Below, piece after piece: positions 982 through 6,101 of a stretch of DNA of 12,483 nt. A program made the position numbers and the translations under genes. The stretch comes from an uncultured Clostridia bacterium (GTDB lineage Bacteria > Bacillota > Clostridia > Oscillospirales > Acutalibacteraceae), in the NCBI GenBank assembly GCA_947165615.1, contig CAMVBD010000008.1:1-12483 (forward strand), in the 5' to 3' direction. The first letter of the stretch is position 1. Each line of letters starts with the position of its first letter. The notes beneath the pieces are model-generated. The model saw only the letters and a program-made list of their open reading frames with translations. It had not been told where the DNA came from and made no database searches.

Positions 982-1644
982 TTACCGGAACTCTTCGAGG
1001 TCCGCGTTCAGCAGCCGCAGACGCACCGCGCGCAGGGGCGCGGCGGACGTACCGAGATACGCGTTGACGGCGTCGGTCAGCTGCTGGGGGTTGAGGTTCA
1101 TGACGGAGCCCGCGGGCAGAACGACTTTCAGGCGCAGGGCGTCTTCGGTCTCTTCCAGCGACCAGGAATGGATACACTCTGAGACATTGACTTTTTTCAT
1201 CACTTTCCTGCCGCCGTGCTTGCCGCTTTTTTCGGTTTCGAGGGCGCCGGAGTCCAGCGCTTCTTTCAGAGAATCCGCGTTCATTTCGGAGGGGTCGTAG
1301 GTGACAAGGTACTCGCCCCACGTGATCTCGGAGGGCTTCATGACGGGTTTTGTTGCCGCCTCCACGAAAAGGCCCTCTGGCAGAGAGGCGTTGAGTCTGT
1401 CCCGCACCTCCTCGGGCGTGACGGCGTCGTCCGTAATGCGTACGTCGACCGGCTCTTTCTCCCCTTCCACGCCGAGCGAGAGCGCCAAAAGGAACGAGAT
1501 GTAGGGATGGGGATTGAAACCCTCGGTGTACCAGAGCGGGATGTTTGCCCGCCGGACCGCCCGGGTCATGAGCCGAAACATATCCAGATGGGACACAAAG
1601 CGGATGCGTCCGCGTTTGGAAAGCCAAAGCCTTACCTCATACAT
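982..1644 (-). CDS. TIGR03936 family radical SAM-associated protein (DUF2344)
   Basis: A 220-residue protein of unknown function. It belongs to the family known to be encoded next to, or fused with, an uncharacterised B12-type radical SAM protein. The diagnostic N-terminus (MYEVRLWLSKRGRIRF, then VSHLD at about 17-21) and the ALSLGVEGEKEPVD segment are visible. The ATG at 1644 is chosen over an in-frame ATG at 1734 for two reasons. It has GGAGG about 8 nt upstream, and it matches the usual family start; the longer version would add 30 low-complexity residues buried inside the upstream gene. It overlaps the end of the radical SAM gene by 8 bases (ATGTATGA), so the two are probably translated in coupled fashion. 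This agrees with a shared task, possibly substrate presentation to the radical SAM enzyme; that last point is inference. Confidence 0.88.
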   Translation of the reverse strand: MYEVRLWLSKRGRIRFVSHLDMFRLMTRAVRRANIPLWYTEGFNPHPYISFLLALSLGVEGEKEPVDVRITDDAVTPEEVRDRLNASLPEGLFVEAATKPVMKPSEITWGEYLVTYDPSEMNADSLKEALDSGALETEKSGKHGGRKVMKKVNVSECIHSWSLEETEDALRLKVVLPAGSVMNLNPQQLTDAVNAYLGTSAAPLRAVRLRLLNADLEEFR

Positions 1645-3472
1645 CGCAGTGTCCTCCGTTGAGTTTATTCGCGCCGCAGCCCGCGCACTTATTGTGGCAG
1701 TTGTCGGTCGTTTCGGCGCGTTTGGCCTTTTCACTTTCGCGCATCAGGTATTTTTTCGGAATGCCGTAGTTCAGATGGTCCCACGGCAGAACCTCGTCGT
1801 AATCCCGTCTGCGGTTGGCGTAAAAGCGCGGATCGAGGACGAGATCGTGAAAGACCTCCATCCACGTGTCAAATCGATAGTATTCGCCCCAGGAGTCGAA
1901 CGTACAGCCGCGTCTCCACGCTTCCTCAATGACGGCGGAAAGGCGGCGGTCGCCGCGCGCGAGCACGCCCTCGAGGAAAGAGGTCTTGATGTCATGGAAG
2001 GAGACGTTGATCTTACGGGACGGCAGGGTCTCTTTCAGGTGGCGCTGCTTATGGTCCAGTTCTTCAGGCGTCGCCTGCGGCTCCCACTGGAAGGGGGTAA
2101 AGGGCTTCGGCACAAAGGAGGACGCCGACACGCCGACGGTCACGCCGCGGCCCTTCGGCTTATCGGGATTCTGATAGTACGCGTCGACGACCTTTTTGGC
2201 AAGGGTGCCGATGCCCTCGACGTCCTCGTCCGTCTCGGTGGGAAGGCCGAGCATAAAGTAGAGTTTGACGGCGGAATAGCCGCCGGAGAAAGCAATGTTT
2301 GCGGTCTCGAGCATTTCCTCTTCCGTCACGTTTTTGTTGATGACGTCGCGCATGCGCTGGGTACCGGCCTCCGGCGCGAAGGTAAGGCCTGAGCGGCGCA
2401 CGGATTTGAGTTTTTGCAGCAGTTCGTCCGAGAAATTGTCGACGCGCAGACTCGGCAGCGCGACGTTGACCTTTTCGCCGGGCGTCCAGTCCAGCAGAAG
2501 GTTCAGAAGCTCCTCGATGCGGGTATAGTCCGAGGACGACAGGGAACAGAGGGAAATCTCGTCATAACCGGTCTCGTGGATGAGGCCCTTGCACTGCTCG
2601 TTGATGACCTCTGGGCTTTTTTCACGGATGGGCCGGTTGAGAAAGCACGCCTGACAGAACCGGCAGCCGCGGATGCAGCCGCGGAAGATCTCATGCGTGA
2701 CGCGGTCGTGCACCACGTCAATAAACGGGACGACAAAGCTTTTGGGGTAATAGACGTTGTCAAGGTCCCGGATGATGCGCTTGGTAACGACGGCAGGCGC
2801 GCCGTCCTTGGGCGTGATCGCGGCGACGGTCCCGTCCGCGTTGTAGGAGATCTCGTAAAGCGAGGGGACGTATACGCCGGGAATCTTTGCCGCTTCGCGC
2901 AGGAATTCTTCCTTTGTGGAGCCGCGTTTTTTGTGAACGGCGTACAGGTCCATGATCTCGCTGTTGACCTCCTCCCCTTCTCCGAGCGAAAACAGGTCGA
3001 AGAATTCCGCGATGGGCTCGGGATTGCAGGCGCAGGGGCCGCCGCCCATGACGATGGGGGCAAGGTCCTTGCGGTCGGCTGCCTTGACCGGAAGACCGGC
3101 GAGGTCCAGCATGTTGAGGATATTCGTATAGCACAGTTCGTACTGCAGCGTAAAGCCGATAAAATCGAAGTCCCGGATCGGGTCGCCGCTTTCGAGCGCA
3201 TACAGCGGGATGTTCTGTTCCCGCATTTTCTGTTCCATATCCGGCCACGGCGCAAAAACCCGTTCACACCAGGTGTCCGGGCGCTCGTTGGCGATGGCGT
3301 AAAGGATTTTGATGCCGAGGTGGCTCATGCCGATCTCATAGGAGTCCGGGAAACAAAAGGCGTAGCGGATGTCTACCGCGTTTTTATCCTTCATGACCTG
3401 TCCCAGCTCCCCGCCCGTGTAACGCGCGGGCTTTTGCACGGTCGGCAGCAGTTTTTCAATTCTGGGATCCAA
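1637..3472 (-). CDS. TIGR03960 family B12-binding-type radical SAM protein
   Basis: A 611-residue radical S-adenosylmethionine enzyme of unknown substrate. The N-terminal part (about 1-240) starts with PRIEKLLPTVQKPARYTGGE and has the shape of a cobalamin-binding-like domain without an obvious DxHxxG motif. The radical SAM core carries CX3CX2C (Cys266, Cys270, Cys273), which binds the catalytic 4Fe-4S cluster. The C-terminus ends in another CX3CX2C (Cys592, Cys596, Cys599) plus Cys609. I chose TTG at 3472 as the start: it is preceded by AAGGA, gives the usual family N-terminus, and sits about 16 nt downstream of the predicted transcription start. The longer open frame to 3616 would begin upstream of the promoter. 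It is co-transcribed with the TIGR03936 partner and the patatin gene. Family assignment is secure; function is unknown. Confidence 0.92.
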   Translation of the reverse strand: MDPRIEKLLPTVQKPARYTGGELGQVMKDKNAVDIRYAFCFPDSYEIGMSHLGIKILYAIANERPDTWCERVFAPWPDMEQKMREQNIPLYALESGDPIRDFDFIGFTLQYELCYTNILNMLDLAGLPVKAADRKDLAPIVMGGGPCACNPEPIAEFFDLFSLGEGEEVNSEIMDLYAVHKKRGSTKEEFLREAAKIPGVYVPSLYEISYNADGTVAAITPKDGAPAVVTKRIIRDLDNVYYPKSFVVPFIDVVHDRVTHEIFRGCIRGCRFCQACFLNRPIREKSPEVINEQCKGLIHETGYDEISLCSLSSSDYTRIEELLNLLLDWTPGEKVNVALPSLRVDNFSDELLQKLKSVRRSGLTFAPEAGTQRMRDVINKNVTEEEMLETANIAFSGGYSAVKLYFMLGLPTETDEDVEGIGTLAKKVVDAYYQNPDKPKGRGVTVGVSASSFVPKPFTPFQWEPQATPEELDHKQRHLKETLPSRKINVSFHDIKTSFLEGVLARGDRRLSAVIEEAWRRGCTFDSWGEYYRFDTWMEVFHDLVLDPRFYANRRRDYDEVLPWDHLNYGIPKKYLMRESEKAKRAETTDNCHNKCAGCGANKLNGGHCDV

Positions 3473-3554: not shown

Positions 3555-4172
3555 TCAGGCCCGGCGAAAGAAACGTCCCGGCAGACGGAACAGCCGGAAG
3601 GCGGCATATACGGCAAAGCCCCAAAGGAACAGCGCGTTGGCGCCGGCGAGCGTGAAAACGCCTGACGATAAAAACAGCCCCGCCGTCAGCGCAAGATCCA
3701 GACGCCGCTGGCCGCGGCTCAGAAAAGCCGCCTTTCCATGGAGGATCAACAGGACCGCCAGCGCTCTGCCGCCGTCCAGGAATGAAAGCGGCAAAAGGTT
3801 GAGGAGTCCAAGCGTCAGATTCAGGAGCACGCCCTCGCCCGTCGGCAAAGAAAAAAGCCGACCGCAGAAAAAGAGCGCCGCCGAGAGGACCAGATTGACA
3901 ACAGGCCCCGCAAGGATACTGACGAGCGCCTTTTTCGGCGGCAAACGGTCGATTTCCCTTCCCGCAATCGCGGCGCCGCCGGGCAGGAGGCTCAGGGTCA
4001 GGTCCCTGCATCCGGCGGACAACAGGCAGACAAGATGTCCCGCCTCATGTAAAAAGGCGCTCAGGAAAAAAGCCGCCGCCCGAAGAGGCGACGACGAGGA
4101 CAGAGCGAGGACCAGAAAGGCTGCAAAGAAAAAGGTGATCCGGAGTTTCAGCCTACCGAAGCGCAGTTCCAC
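3555..4172 (-). CDS. spoIVFB: M50 family site-2-type intramembrane metalloprotease, SpoIVFB-like
   Basis: A 205-residue polytopic membrane protease. SpoIVFB homologues cleave pro-sigma-K in the mother cell during sporulation. The zinc motif HEAGH (His42, Glu43, His46) lies in an early membrane helix. LAGPVVNL at about 87-94 and NLLPLSFLDGG (Asp133) supply the other family signatures, including the third zinc ligand. I chose GTG at 4172: it has GGAGGG at 4186-4181 and yields the normal family N-terminus. The longer frame to 4274 would add 34 residues lying wholly inside the M23 gene. It overlaps the M23 gene by 20 bases. The SpoIVFA/SpoIVFB order of neighbours and the upstream sigma-E-like promoter support a sporulation role. 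The C-terminus is hydrophobic and lacks the CBS domain of the B. subtilis protein (known to be 288 residues). The exact name spoIVFB is inferred, not proven. Confidence 0.82.
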   Translation of the reverse strand: MELRFGRLKLRITFFFAAFLVLALSSSSPLRAAAFFLSAFLHEAGHLVCLLSAGCRDLTLSLLPGGAAIAGREIDRLPPKKALVSILAGPVVNLVLSAALFFCGRLFSLPTGEGVLLNLTLGLLNLLPLSFLDGGRALAVLLILHGKAAFLSRGQRRLDLALTAGLFLSSGVFTLAGANALFLWGFAVYAAFRLFRLPGRFFRRA

Positions 4173-4935
4173 CGGAAGCGCCCTCCAAAAAAGCGGTCGG
4201 ATCGGTTTTTTCCCCACCGACGTGCAATTCAAAATGCAGATGCGGACCGGTCGCAAGCCCCGTATGTCCGACAAAGCCGACGACGTCGCCCTTTCGCACC
4301 GTCTCGCCCGTCTTTACGTTGACAGCGGACAGATGGCAGTACAGCGTCTCCCGGTCCCCGGTATGACGGAGTTTTACGTAATTGCCGCTCATCTCCCCGA
4401 CGCCGACGCCGACGACTTCTCCGTCCAGGACCGCAAGCACCGGCGTCCCTTCCTCCGCGCCGAGATCCACGCCGGAGTGGAACCGCGTTTGGCCGTAGAT
4501 CGGGTGGGTCCGCTCCCCGTAGCCGGAAGTCATGCTTCCCGAGACCGGCAGAATAGGCGTCTCGGTGTTCAGCGTCAGCGGGACCGGCGTCAGGGCGGCG
4601 GCGGGAAGCGCGGCGCCCGTTCCCGTCTGCTCTGCGGCGGAGGCGGCGGATACGGAGGGCTCGGCGTCCGGCTCGGAAGACGGTTCGTTCTTTTCGGAAG
4701 TTTGGTCCTCCTTTTTTTCGTATCCGCTTCCGATGTCAAAAAAGCGCAGGGGCTCTTTTCCGTAATCCCCGGCGTTCAGGCTGTCAAACTCTGTCCGCAT
4801 CCGGGAGAAAGACTCCTGTCGGTAAAAGGCCGTAAACAGCAGGACGGCCGCGATCAGGATGCAGATCCCCGTCTGCAGAAAAGTCAGAGAGATAAACGGG
4901 TCCCGCTGTTTTCCGGGCTTTTTTTCCGCACGCAT
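4153..4935 (-). CDS. M23/LytM family membrane-anchored peptidase in the SpoIVFA position
   Basis: A 260-residue protein with a short basic N-terminus, one membrane helix (about 18-37), a Ser/Glu/Ala-rich linker (about 70-125) and a C-terminal LytM domain (about 130-252). The domain keeps every catalytic residue expected of an M23 endopeptidase: His153 and Asp157 (HSGVD), His201, and His232/His234 (HLHFEL). It may therefore cleave peptidoglycan cross-links outside the membrane. Its place directly before an M50 protease is that of SpoIVFA, which tethers and inhibits SpoIVFB in B. subtilis. The ATG at 4935 has AAGGGGGAG upstream, separated by a run of seven T. That run and the ribosome binding site also form the 3' half of the LysR terminator. 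Alternative roles are a SpoIIQ-like factor or a plain cell-wall hydrolase. Confidence 0.85.
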   Translation of the reverse strand: MRAEKKPGKQRDPFISLTFLQTGICILIAAVLLFTAFYRQESFSRMRTEFDSLNAGDYGKEPLRFFDIGSGYEKKEDQTSEKNEPSSEPDAEPSVSAASAAEQTGTGAALPAAALTPVPLTLNTETPILPVSGSMTSGYGERTHPIYGQTRFHSGVDLGAEEGTPVLAVLDGEVVGVGVGEMSGNYVKLRHTGDRETLYCHLSAVNVKTGETVRKGDVVGFVGHTGLATGPHLHFELHVGGEKTDPTAFLEGASGGTALR

Positions 4936-4982
4936 AAAAAAACTCCCCCTTGTCCCTAAAGCGTATGCGCGGGAAAGGGGGA
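4936..4982 (-). terminator. LysR-gene terminator hairpin that also sequesters the M23 ribosome binding site
   Basis: Starting 12 nt past the LysR stop, the minus strand forms an 8-bp stem (TCCCCCTT 4982-4975 with AAGGGGGA 4951-4944), a 1-nt bulge (4952) and four more pairs (TCCC 4974-4971 with GGGA 4956-4953). The loop contains a small GCG-CATA-CGC hairpin. A G and seven T (4942-4936) follow, running directly into the ATG at 4935. It has the form of a Rho-independent terminator. The 3' arm AAGGGGGAG is also the M23 ribosome binding site. Confidence 0.78.
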
Positions 4983-4989
4983 TTATGAC
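4960..4989 (-). promoter_or_regulatory. Putative sigma-E (mother-cell sporulation) promoter for the M23-M50 pair
   Basis: On the minus strand, TCATAAT (4988-4982), a 14-bp spacer and CATACGCT (4967-4960). The B. subtilis sigma-E consensus is KMATATT, about 14 bp, CATACAHT. The match is 6 of 7 and 7 of 8 positions with exact spacing. The predicted start near 4953 gives an 18-nt leader that holds the M23 ribosome binding site. The B. subtilis spoIVF operon is known to be under sigma-E, which fits. It was found by eye, so chance similarity is not excluded. Confidence 0.6.
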
Positions 4990-4994
4990 GGGGT

Positions 4995-5894
4995 TCAGCG
5001 ATAGACGCGCACGGTATCGTTATAGGCGGCGACGATACCGTGGAGCATTTCGGTCTGCGAAAAATCATCCCGGTATGCGATGTTCATTTCTCGCATCATG
5101 CTGAGGTTTTCGACCGGCAGGACGGAGATTTTGCCTTTTTTGATCTCGTCCAGACACGCGGATCTCGGCAGGATGGAAATGCCGAAGTCCCGGCGGATCA
5201 GATCCTTGATGGTCGCGACGTTGTCGAGTTCCAGAATCACGTTGAAGTCGGAGACGTTCATGTTGTTCGATTCCAGATGCGCGACGAACAGGTTGCGGGT
5301 CCCGGAGTTCGGCAGGCGCAGGATCAGACGCTCCTTTTTGAGTTCCTGCAAAGTGACCATGCTTTTTCCCGCCAGCGGGTGCGTCGGGGAGACCGCGGCG
5401 ATCAGGTAGTCGGTATCGAGCAGCAGAAAGCGCAGCGACGGGTCCTGCGTGCGGCCTTCCACGACGGCGATGTCAAGTTCATAGGTTTTAAGCATCTTAT
5501 AAAGATTGCTTATAGAGTCCGTAATCATTTTTATACTGACGCCCCCGTTTTCGGCGGCGTATTTCGCAAGCGCCTCCGCAATGGGGTTGGACTCCGCCGT
5601 ATGGGTAATGCCGACGGTCAGGTGGTCGATGGAAAGCCGGGCGTCCGAAAGATCCTGCACCAGCGTATTCTCCAGCGCGATCATTTTCTGGGCGCAGCGG
5701 ATCACTTTTTTCCCGGGCTTTGTGACGATCAGCTTGCCGCCGACCCGTTCGAAGATTTTGACGCCCAGCTCGGATTCCAGGCTTTTGATGTGCTGGCTGA
5801 CGGCGGGCTGCGTAACAGACAACTGCTTTGCCGCGCCGACGAACGAGCCGCACTGGTACACGGCGACCAGAGAATAGAGTTTCGGTTCGATCAT
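4995..5894 (-). CDS. LysR family transcriptional regulator
   Basis: A 299-residue LysR-type regulator. The N-terminal winged helix-turn-helix (about 1-60) is textbook: LYSLVAVYQCGSFVGAAKQL followed by VTQPAVSQHIKSLESELG. The effector-binding domain follows from about residue 88 to the end. The ATG at 5894 has AAGGAG 5 nt upstream; an earlier in-frame ATG at 5951 lacks a site and adds 19 residues not seen in the family. It is divergent from the MATE transporter gene, with two T-N11-A dyads between them. It therefore probably controls that transporter and itself in response to an unknown small molecule. It ends shortly before a terminator that overlaps the start region of the M23 gene. The ligand cannot be deduced. 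Confidence 0.93.
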   Translation of the reverse strand: MIEPKLYSLVAVYQCGSFVGAAKQLSVTQPAVSQHIKSLESELGVKIFERVGGKLIVTKPGKKVIRCAQKMIALENTLVQDLSDARLSIDHLTVGITHTAESNPIAEALAKYAAENGGVSIKMITDSISNLYKMLKTYELDIAVVEGRTQDPSLRFLLLDTDYLIAAVSPTHPLAGKSMVTLQELKKERLILRLPNSGTRNLFVAHLESNNMNVSDFNVILELDNVATIKDLIRRDFGISILPRSACLDEIKKGKISVLPVENLSMMREMNIAYRDDFSQTEMLHGIVAAYNDTVRVYR

Positions 5895-5906
5895 ACAGAC
5901 TCCTTT

Positions 5907-5925
5907 ATATAACGATTTGTTATAT
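5907..5925. promoter_or_regulatory. LysR recognition site (T-N11-A dyad), distal
   Basis: Perfect inverted repeat ATATAAC-N5-GTTATAT containing TAAC-N5-GTTA, which has the T-N11-A form expected of LysR-type regulators. Its centre (5916) lies about 64 bases before the predicted MATE transcription start, the usual place of the high-affinity LysR site. It also lies in the LysR leader, next to that gene's ribosome binding site, so it could serve in autorepression. Confidence 0.65.
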
Positions 5926-5939
5926 CTGTGTAAAAAATA

Positions 5940-5954
5940 ATAACTTGACATTAT
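5940..5954. promoter_or_regulatory. LysR activation-type site (second T-N11-A dyad) over the MATE -35 box
   Basis: Imperfect dyad ATAAC-N5-ATTAT with T-N11-A geometry (T5941 to A5953). Its centre (5947) is 31 bp from that of the distal dyad, about three helical turns, and it overlaps the TTGACA box of the MATE promoter. This is where an activation-binding site of a LysR regulator normally sits. Because the arms are weaker, the call is less certain. Confidence 0.45.
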
Positions 5955-5973
5955 CTCATAGATTTAGTAGAAT
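5945..5973 (+). promoter_or_regulatory. Sigma-A promoter of the MATE gene
   Basis: TTGACA (5945-5950), 17-bp spacer, TAGAAT (5968-5973). The predicted start near 5980 gives a leader of about 120 nt before the TTG at 6102. The -10 box abuts the -10 box of the opposing LysR promoter, so the two promoters share DNA and may exclude each other. Confidence 0.75.
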
Positions 5974-6000
5974 TATATAGTATTCGAAAAGAAAAATCAA
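5972..6000 (-). promoter_or_regulatory. Sigma-A promoter of the LysR gene
   Basis: On the minus strand, TTGATT (6000-5995), 17-bp spacer, TATAAT (5977-5972). The predicted start near 5965 gives a leader of about 70 nt that includes both LysR dyads, a layout suited to autorepression. Confidence 0.65.
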
Positions 6001-6027
6001 CCGTTTCATAAACTTTTCTGACCATTT

Positions 6028-6060
6028 GCCGGGACTTCCCCGGCGATTGTCTTTTTCTTT
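6028..6060 (+). promoter_or_regulatory. Leader hairpin of the MATE mRNA, possible weak attenuator
   Basis: GCCGGG (6028-6033), loop ACTTC, CCCGGC (6039-6044), extendable by a T-G and a T-A pair, followed after six bases by T-rich sequence (two runs of five T). It lies inside the predicted untranslated leader. The T runs start late for a normal terminator, so the function is open. Confidence 0.3.
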
Positions 6061-6101
6061 TTATCCCTGTTTTCGACTTTTTCAGAAAGGAAGCGACCCT
6101 C

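Follow-up and report, generated by a model that had tools for sequence, protein, structure and literature searches.

The 54 bases between a LysR-family regulator gene and an M23 peptidase-domain gene probably act as a developmental insulator, in which a sigma-E promoter is nested in a combined terminator and Shine-Dalgarno (SD) lock. They lie in a 12,483-nt stretch of an uncultured Acutalibacteraceae bacterium, hereafter the window, whose host is the metagenome-assembled genome (MAG) G000 (58% complete). Polymerase reading through from LysR would make RNA with both arms of a hairpin, and the hairpin and the U7 tract behind it would end the transcript at the ATG. In read-through RNA that escaped, folding predicts that the SD would be buried in the hairpin. 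Sigma-E polymerase would bind TCATAAT-N14-CATACGCT and begin just after the 5' arm. Because this start lies after the 5' arm, the sigma-E RNA could not form the hairpin; by the geometry of the sequence it would escape the terminator and expose its SD. The promoter spacer, otherwise free, would double as the anti-SD arm, and the same DNA would be silent in read-through RNA and active from the nested promoter. The same design, with a predicted sigma-F-like promoter, was found between ispE and spoIIR in G000 and its relatives; the nested element therefore appears to be a recurring way of putting an early sporulation gene immediately downstream of a vegetative gene on the same strand. What is said here of start sites, sigma factors, termination, blocked translation and biological purpose is deduced from sequence.

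The LysR-M23 junction and its host

A gap of 59 nt separates the LysR stop from the M23 ATG. Read along the minus strand, the LysR TGA (4997-4995) is followed by ACCCCG, TCATAAT (4988-4982), 14 nt, CATACGCT (4967-4960), TTAGGGACAAGGGGGAG, T7 (4942-4936), and the ATG of the M23 gene (4935-4933). The 14-nt promoter spacer is pyrimidine-rich and pairs with the SD when folded. As the first-pass annotation had stated, seven T run into the M23 ATG, and the ribosome binding site of the M23 gene lies within the 3' arm (Table 1). The 12-bp hairpin that it had described after the LysR stop was found at the same coordinates; the minimum-energy fold has 8 bp (TCCCCCTT/AAGGGGGA), a bulged C, and 4 bp (TCCC/GGGA), and a 3-bp GCG/CGC inner stem around the -10 box lies inside it. 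The sigma-E-like promoter with its -10 box in the hairpin loop was also recovered by sequence. Its start had been claimed to lie after the 5' arm, which agrees with the geometry: the -10 box ends at 4960 and the 5' arm at 4971, and the start itself is predicted from the usual spacing between -10 and +1.

Table 1. Features at and around the junction, with window positions
Feature	Position	Strand	Basis
LysR-family regulator gene, 318-aa ORF	4995..5951	-	ORF; PF00126/PF03466
-35 box TCATAAT, sigma-E-type promoter	4982..4988	-	sequence
5' arm (anti-SD) TCCCCCTTTCCC	4971..4982	-	fold; from the last -35 base into the 14-nt spacer
-10 box CATACGCT, within hairpin loop	4960..4967	-	sequence; CATA core kept in relatives
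3' arm GGGA-C-AAGGGGGA	4944..4956	-	fold
Predicted start region of sigma-E RNA, after 5' arm	4951..4955	-	inferred from the usual -10/+1 distance
GGACAAG, candidate SpoIIID operator over predicted start	4949..4955	-	sequence
Shine-Dalgarno AAGGGGGAG of the M23 gene	4943..4951	-	sequence; duplex with anti-SD -9.8 kcal/mol
U7 tract, adjoining the ATG	4936..4942	-	sequence
M23 peptidase-domain membrane protein gene, SpoIVFA-like by position	4153..4935	-	PF01551, 106.7 bits
M50 protease gene, SpoIVFB-like by position	3555..4157	-	PF02163, 42.9 bits (cut-off 27.2)
TIGR03960 B12-binding radical SAM gene, next on the same strand	1637..3466	-	997.9 bits

The fold of positions 4925-4997 had an energy of -28.4 kcal/mol (z -2.9), and 3 of 200 shuffles were as good. 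By sequence, the G+C-rich 12-bp stem followed by U7 has the form of an intrinsic terminator; a terminator scan with loops of up to 8 did not list the junction hairpin because of this loop limit. When the spacer was replaced by random 18-mers from the same locus, 4 of 3000 equalled the real one in their pairing with the leader. When it was shuffled with its composition kept, a match of at least 8 bp occurred in 23% of the shuffles (p 0.23, G000), indicating that the pyrimidine-rich composition carries much of the signal; this test gave the weaker outcome of the two, and both are reported. A rule combining an SD in a stem with a T-run at the start codon was satisfied by 8 of 6563 candidate starts in the window and 1.05 Mb of related loci. 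Three of these eight were the LysR-M23 junction (the window, and G009 counted twice), and one was spoIIR of G006. Under a looser rule, 9 of 4162 candidate starts on 61 MAG contigs passed, the window's start included. An Rfam family for the junction element was rejected, with 0 matches at the gathering threshold.

An M23-domain gene (PF01551) followed by an M50 protease gene (PF02163) is the arrangement of the spoIVFA-spoIVFB operon, and by position the pair looks like this operon; genes for TIGR03960 and TIGR03936 come next. With NCBIfam profiles at E 0.001, the M23 protein had no SpoIVF match and the M50 protein no match of any kind. HEAGH and LDGG motifs were recognized by eye in the M50 protease, whose exact start is uncertain, and the N-termini of the M23 proteins are similar in the relatives. 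A longer antisense ORF probably covers the window's M23 gene. A patatin-like gene (positions 3-971, GGGSKGAY by eye) follows TIGR03936, at a place where RNase G is often found. For the LysR ORF, the methionine of MIEPKLYSL near 5894 is the likelier start. On its other side lies a divergent MatE-family gene, from which LysR is most likely a vegetative gene. This layout is the usual one for a LysR regulator beside its target, and the divergent intergenic region (5952-6101) contains sigma-A-type matches on both strands.

A host lineage without sigE had been raised as a check on the proposal. The gene was found in the MAG (contig C12, 3916-4608; 310.9 bits; best family SigE), adjoining spoIIGA, and the idea that the host lacks it was rejected. 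Its score is below the SigE cut-off of 348.6, which was reached by 0 of the 26 genus genomes; a SigE-level match of at least 299 bits was present in 21 of the 26, and any match at threshold in 23. SpoIIGA is likewise present in G000 with a score below its curated cut-off, as is spoIIID with a score below its family cut-off. The gene after sigE in G000 (L008 3904-5967, contig C12) is unrelated, glycosidase-like by eye, and not sigG.

Predicted promoter and lock before the M23 gene in relatives

The promoter matrix was trained on spoIVA upstream regions from 17 of 21 genus genomes, all with 14-nt spacing. The window site scored 13.8, a value reached by 0 of 300 shuffles and lower than those of all 17 training sites (15.9-21.6). 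Among 1.18 million positions (61 of 398 MAG contigs), seven sites with 14-nt spacing scored at least 13.7, the window's included, and about 0.0002 chance sites were calculated for a given 40-nt upstream slot. The boxes, whose persistence in relatives had been proposed as a check, are kept: 14 of the 16 scored genus genomes have a matrix site ahead of M23, at -52 to -79 (each with p at most 0.017 against 300 shuffles; G005 is outside the 16). No sigma-E site was found by the matrix before M23 in G017 and G024. In G024, LysR is kept and is separated from spoIVFA by two genes, one MFS-like by eye and the other coding for an IS481-family transposase (L144 4345-7437). Across the 398 family genomes, the sequence pattern CATANNNNNTANGGACAAGG matched in 9 and the LysR search in 5. 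Elsewhere in G000, downstream of a gene that resembles yajC by eye, a TIGR04086 membrane-protein gene (L263 3960-4405, contig C58) has a strong sigma-E-type site, scoring 19.9, and no lock. A spoIVFA-like M23 match at E 1e-25 was absent from 9 of the 26 genus genomes (G001, G013, and G021 among them), some of them nearly complete and sigE-bearing; processing of pro-sigma-K may be different in genomes of this kind.

The GGACAAG box of the window lies across the predicted start and shares bases with the 3' arm. GGACARG resembles a SpoIIID site of the consensus WWRRACARNY, and by this likeness it may be a SpoIIID operator, which we regard as a lead. The motif occurred in 5 of 16 M23 upstream regions, just after the -10 box (shuffle mean 0.17). 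Among the spoIIIAA upstream regions, which were placed by approximate position, 9 of 19 had it, in most cases between the boxes (shuffle mean 0.22). It was found in 0 of 21 spoIVA upstream regions, and the looser RRACARG was present in 6 of these 21 versus 0.89 in shuffles. GGACARG has a near-fixed place in the sigma-E-type promoters of spoIVFA and of spoIIIAA, the spoIIIAA leaders being those in loci L184-L203. According to one report, SpoIIID represses spoIIIAA and spoIVA in C. difficile, and both genes are among its targets in B. subtilis (PMC3789822).

LysR lies directly upstream of M23 in G000, G009, and G022. The predicted cost of opening the SD, in kcal/mol, was 12.2 in read-through RNA versus 3.8 in RNA from the nested start in G000, 15.6 versus 5.4 in G009, and 14.4 versus 3.9 in G022, own RNA being taken to begin after the -10 box. 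These modelled energies agree with the claim that the ribosome site would be locked in read-through RNA and free in sigma-E RNA. In G010 the values were 14.1 and 5.1 kcal/mol, though LysR is not upstream there; in the remaining 12 M23 leaders, read-through opening cost at most 7.8 kcal/mol. Strong pairing between spacer and leader was found in all three LysR-upstream genomes, the window's included (matched by 4, 4, and 8 of 3000 random draws). Among the 11 other genomes scored, G010 pairs less strongly (61 of 3000) and 10 do not pair in this way.

The neighbors upstream of M23 differ among the other genomes: spoIIR in G006, G008, G014, G017, and G019, a 121-aa ORF in G010, a divergent gene in G011, and overlapping ORFs in G002 and G012, where the neighbor is probably divergent. 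In G007 there is an apparent separate terminator ahead of the M23 promoter, and the spoIVFA leader of G008 has a GAGCCG/CGGCTC hairpin with a T8 loop. Persistence of the stem in relatives, another proposed check, was thus only partly borne out: it is kept in the three LysR-upstream genomes and is weak or absent in most others. It has been lost in the close relative G011 (TIGR03960 protein 92% identical), an outcome that had been listed as speaking against the proposal, but the upstream gene is divergent there and leaves no read-through to block. G004 and G018 are counter-examples, with a co-directional dinB-like gene (named by eye) 66-67 nt upstream of M23 and no lock (SD opening of 0.0 and 6.6, respectively).

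Eight pairs counted outward from the loop are kept across G000, G009, and G022. In that order, column 5 reads C-G, U-G, and U-A, and column 8 reads U-A, U-A, and C-G. The pairs were counted on equal 23-nt loops; MAFFT gapped the loop and broke the pairing register. Compensatory changes, which had been suggested as evidence to look for, were found in part: two positions changed on both sides between G000 and G022, whereas arms swapped between G000 and G009 paired nearly as well as the native ones, and only G022, whose arms shift and change together, clearly preferred its own. The covariation at M23, coming from three sequences, gives modest support. Over all 16 M23 leaders, 97 of 5000 arm swaps matched the native pairing. 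The U-tract directly after the G+C-rich stem is U7 in G000 and U6 in G009; that of G022 is weak (TTCT before TTG).

The ispE-spoIIR leader

The gene upstream of spoIVFA in relatives led to the same architecture at spoIIR. In G000, spoIIR begins 51 nt after ispE (leader at L268 1999-2046, contig C55), and ispE and SpoIIR both score above their cut-offs. The leader contains GCATA-N14-TCCCATACT and the hairpin AAAAAAGTCC/GGACTTTTTT with AAAGGA as its SD, and the stretch leading up to the ATG is T-rich; the fold has a z of -4.4, and 0 of 200 shuffles equalled it. Overlapping ispE in another frame is a 99-aa ORF that extends into the spoIIR start; it was taken to be fortuitous. The promoter would be of the sigma-F type, judging from orthology and position. 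The -10 box lies in the 5' arm at spoIIR and in the loop at the spoIVFA-like gene.

Promoter-like boxes were present in 19 of the 21 genus spoIIR leaders (16 under a strict rule), and at least six T in the last 9 nt were also found in 19 of 21. Predicted SD opening in read-through RNA cost at least 7.3 kcal/mol in 20 of the 21 genomes (2.7 in G010). In RNA beginning after the -10 box it cost at most 4.7 in 17 of the 18 computed (10.2 in G018). In 20 of the 21 genomes, the frame that ends 48-110 nt upstream of spoIIR runs in the same direction and has 286-430 codons; in G002 it has 128. A model match identified this frame as ispE in just two genomes, G000 and G019, and the spoIIR starts of G004 and G018 were corrected by eye. 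Beyond the genus, a lock of at least 8 kcal/mol was predicted in 16 of 30 family loci from other genera, several with a poor U-tract. These 30 were the best-scoring SpoIIR matches of 353 matching genomes (395 searched), not a random sample, and in some, for example L288, L311, and L312, the start is probably misplaced. With a poor or no U-tract, the lock still reached 8.5 kcal/mol in G008, 14.7 in L290, and 16.0 in L301; in G008 (L151), A6 replaces the U-tract and the lock is kept. High SD opening alone is unspecific, at least 8 kcal/mol being found in 7 of 21 spoIVA leaders.

When 3' arms were swapped among spoIIR leaders, 0 of 5000 permutations reached the native mean, whether for the 21 genus leaders, the 30 family leaders, or all 51. 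In the spoIVA leaders used as a control, 1633 of 5000 reached it. The covariation score was 0.290 versus 0.171 in shuffles, and 66.2% of cells were paired versus 56.8% (0 of 500 shuffles as high for each); sliding the partners lowered both values. Two of the five measures did not beat the shuffles: pairs with two-sided changes (6 versus 5.8, a count reached by 416 of 500 shuffles) and further pair types (18 versus 17.1, reached by 203 of 500). These covariation values come from alignment A4, which covers 43 of the 51 leaders used in the swap test and leaves out eight without a -10 core by pattern (G022 and G025 from the genus, plus six of the family loci; in two of these six, L295 and L316, the lock can be seen by eye). 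G000 is off register in A4 by one C and was counted partly unpaired. Relatedness can inflate the covariation score and the paired-cell share; the spoIVA swap control speaks against relatedness as the whole cause.

In a scan of 857 kb of the MAG (101 of 398 contigs), nine promoter-gene pairs were found, and lock, relief, and T-run occurred together only at spoIIR and the window gene (lock of 11.9 and 11.8, relief of 2.0 and 3.7, respectively). With two of nine pairs carrying the full set, the design is not common to all sporulation promoters. The combination had been called unusual in the first-pass annotation; it is not unique to the window, an idea rejected because spoIIR carries the same design, and its logic has precedents in B. 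subtilis sigG and phage T4.

Alternative readings and known systems

An unlikely but not negligible alternative is that the junction is simply compact: the 59-nt gap would force the LysR terminator and the sigma-E promoter to overlap, and the SD would fall in the 3' arm since both are rich in G, with no translational lock. The survival of an 8-bp match in 23% of pyrimidine-rich spacer shuffles fits this idea, as does the fact that dinB-preceded genomes manage without a lock. It accounts poorly for an SD pairing that is kept in three genomes with compensated columns and an opening cost of 12-16 kcal/mol, and the spoIIR lock persists in G008, L290, and L301 despite their poor or missing U-tracts, which points to selection on the SD pairing itself. 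It is less probable still that the hairpin is a translational lock only, U7 being an A/T-rich spacer between SD and start with no appreciable termination. Here the weak U-tract of G022 and the poor ones of some strongly paired spoIIR leaders count in favor, but U7 in G000 and U6 in G009 directly follow a G+C-rich stem, and 19 of 21 genus spoIIR leaders have T-rich tails. We give hardly any weight to a real sigma-E promoter beside a chance hairpin of no functional structure. The LysR junction is confined to three genomes and its z of -2.9 is modest, as such a reading would expect; against it stand the 4 of 3000 random spacers that pair as well, the concerted shift of both arms in G022, and the same architecture with coevolving arms at spoIIR.

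The insulator reading, which we consider probable, suggests that the element would prevent untimely expression of a sporulation protease. We also favor, with more reserve, a broader proposal: that the lock architecture is conserved and recurrent in the sporulators of the family with sigma-F (spoIIR) and sigma-E (spoIVFA), that it arises behind vegetative genes and lets commitment genes be translated only from RNA that the right sigma factor has made, and that its spoIIR form is an undescribed family-wide structured leader. If this is true, an element of about 50 nt keeps developmental genes silent behind housekeeping genes in compact genomes. The product of spoIIR triggers sigma-E activation, and the element would explain how this gene can sit about 50 nt after ispE. 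It would also provide a sequence signature to seek in other sporulators and a natural design for leak-proof genetic circuits.

No description of a spoIIR lock or of a promoter inside a terminator was recognized in the literature covered, which mostly did not include subscription papers. IS10, IS50, and IS200 make RNA from outside promoters that folds to hide the ribosome binding site (RBS), sometimes with a terminator; the RBS-hiding fold is alike, but mobile elements are protected there and a developmental programme here. Sigma-E controls the B. subtilis spoIVF operon, and SpoIIID, bound upstream of spoIVFA, represses it (PMC517825). The sigma-E-type site and the GGACAAG box of the window are similar to it, whereas a lock with the promoter in a terminator is not mentioned in the part of that paper available to us (PMC517825).

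The lock logic itself is already known from T4 late genes and from the hairpin proposed for B. subtilis sigG, as far as the accessible parts of these reports go. Among the late genes and homing endonucleases of T4 (I-TevI, soc, e), the RBS is sequestered in early read-through RNA, and I-TevI has its late promoter so positioned that the inhibitory structure is missing from late RNA (PMC2988022). As at the junction, the RBS is hidden in read-through RNA and free in RNA from the gene's own promoter; in contrast, T4 uses phage late promoters and a lock, and here sporulation sigma factors are combined with a merged intrinsic terminator (PMC2988022). For sigG, a large hairpin of 20 or more pairs was proposed to block translation of spoIIGA-sigE read-through RNA, and it cannot form in RNA from sigG's own promoter (PMC5942855). 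The likeness is a translational lock on a sporulation gene that acts in read-through RNA and is absent from own-promoter RNA (PMC5942855). In the accessible text of that paper no terminator role is mentioned, whereas here the U-tract adjoins the ATG; a further difference is the place of the -10 box here, in the loop (spoIVFA-like) or within the 5' arm (spoIIR), and the neighbors upstream are apparently vegetative here, compared with spoIIGA-sigE there (PMC5942855). Relative to T4 and sigG, as far as is known from the parts of these papers at hand, the merged intrinsic terminator with a U-tract reaching the start codon, the use of a promoter spacer or -10 box as the anti-SD arm, and the occurrence with two predicted sigma factors set the present design apart.
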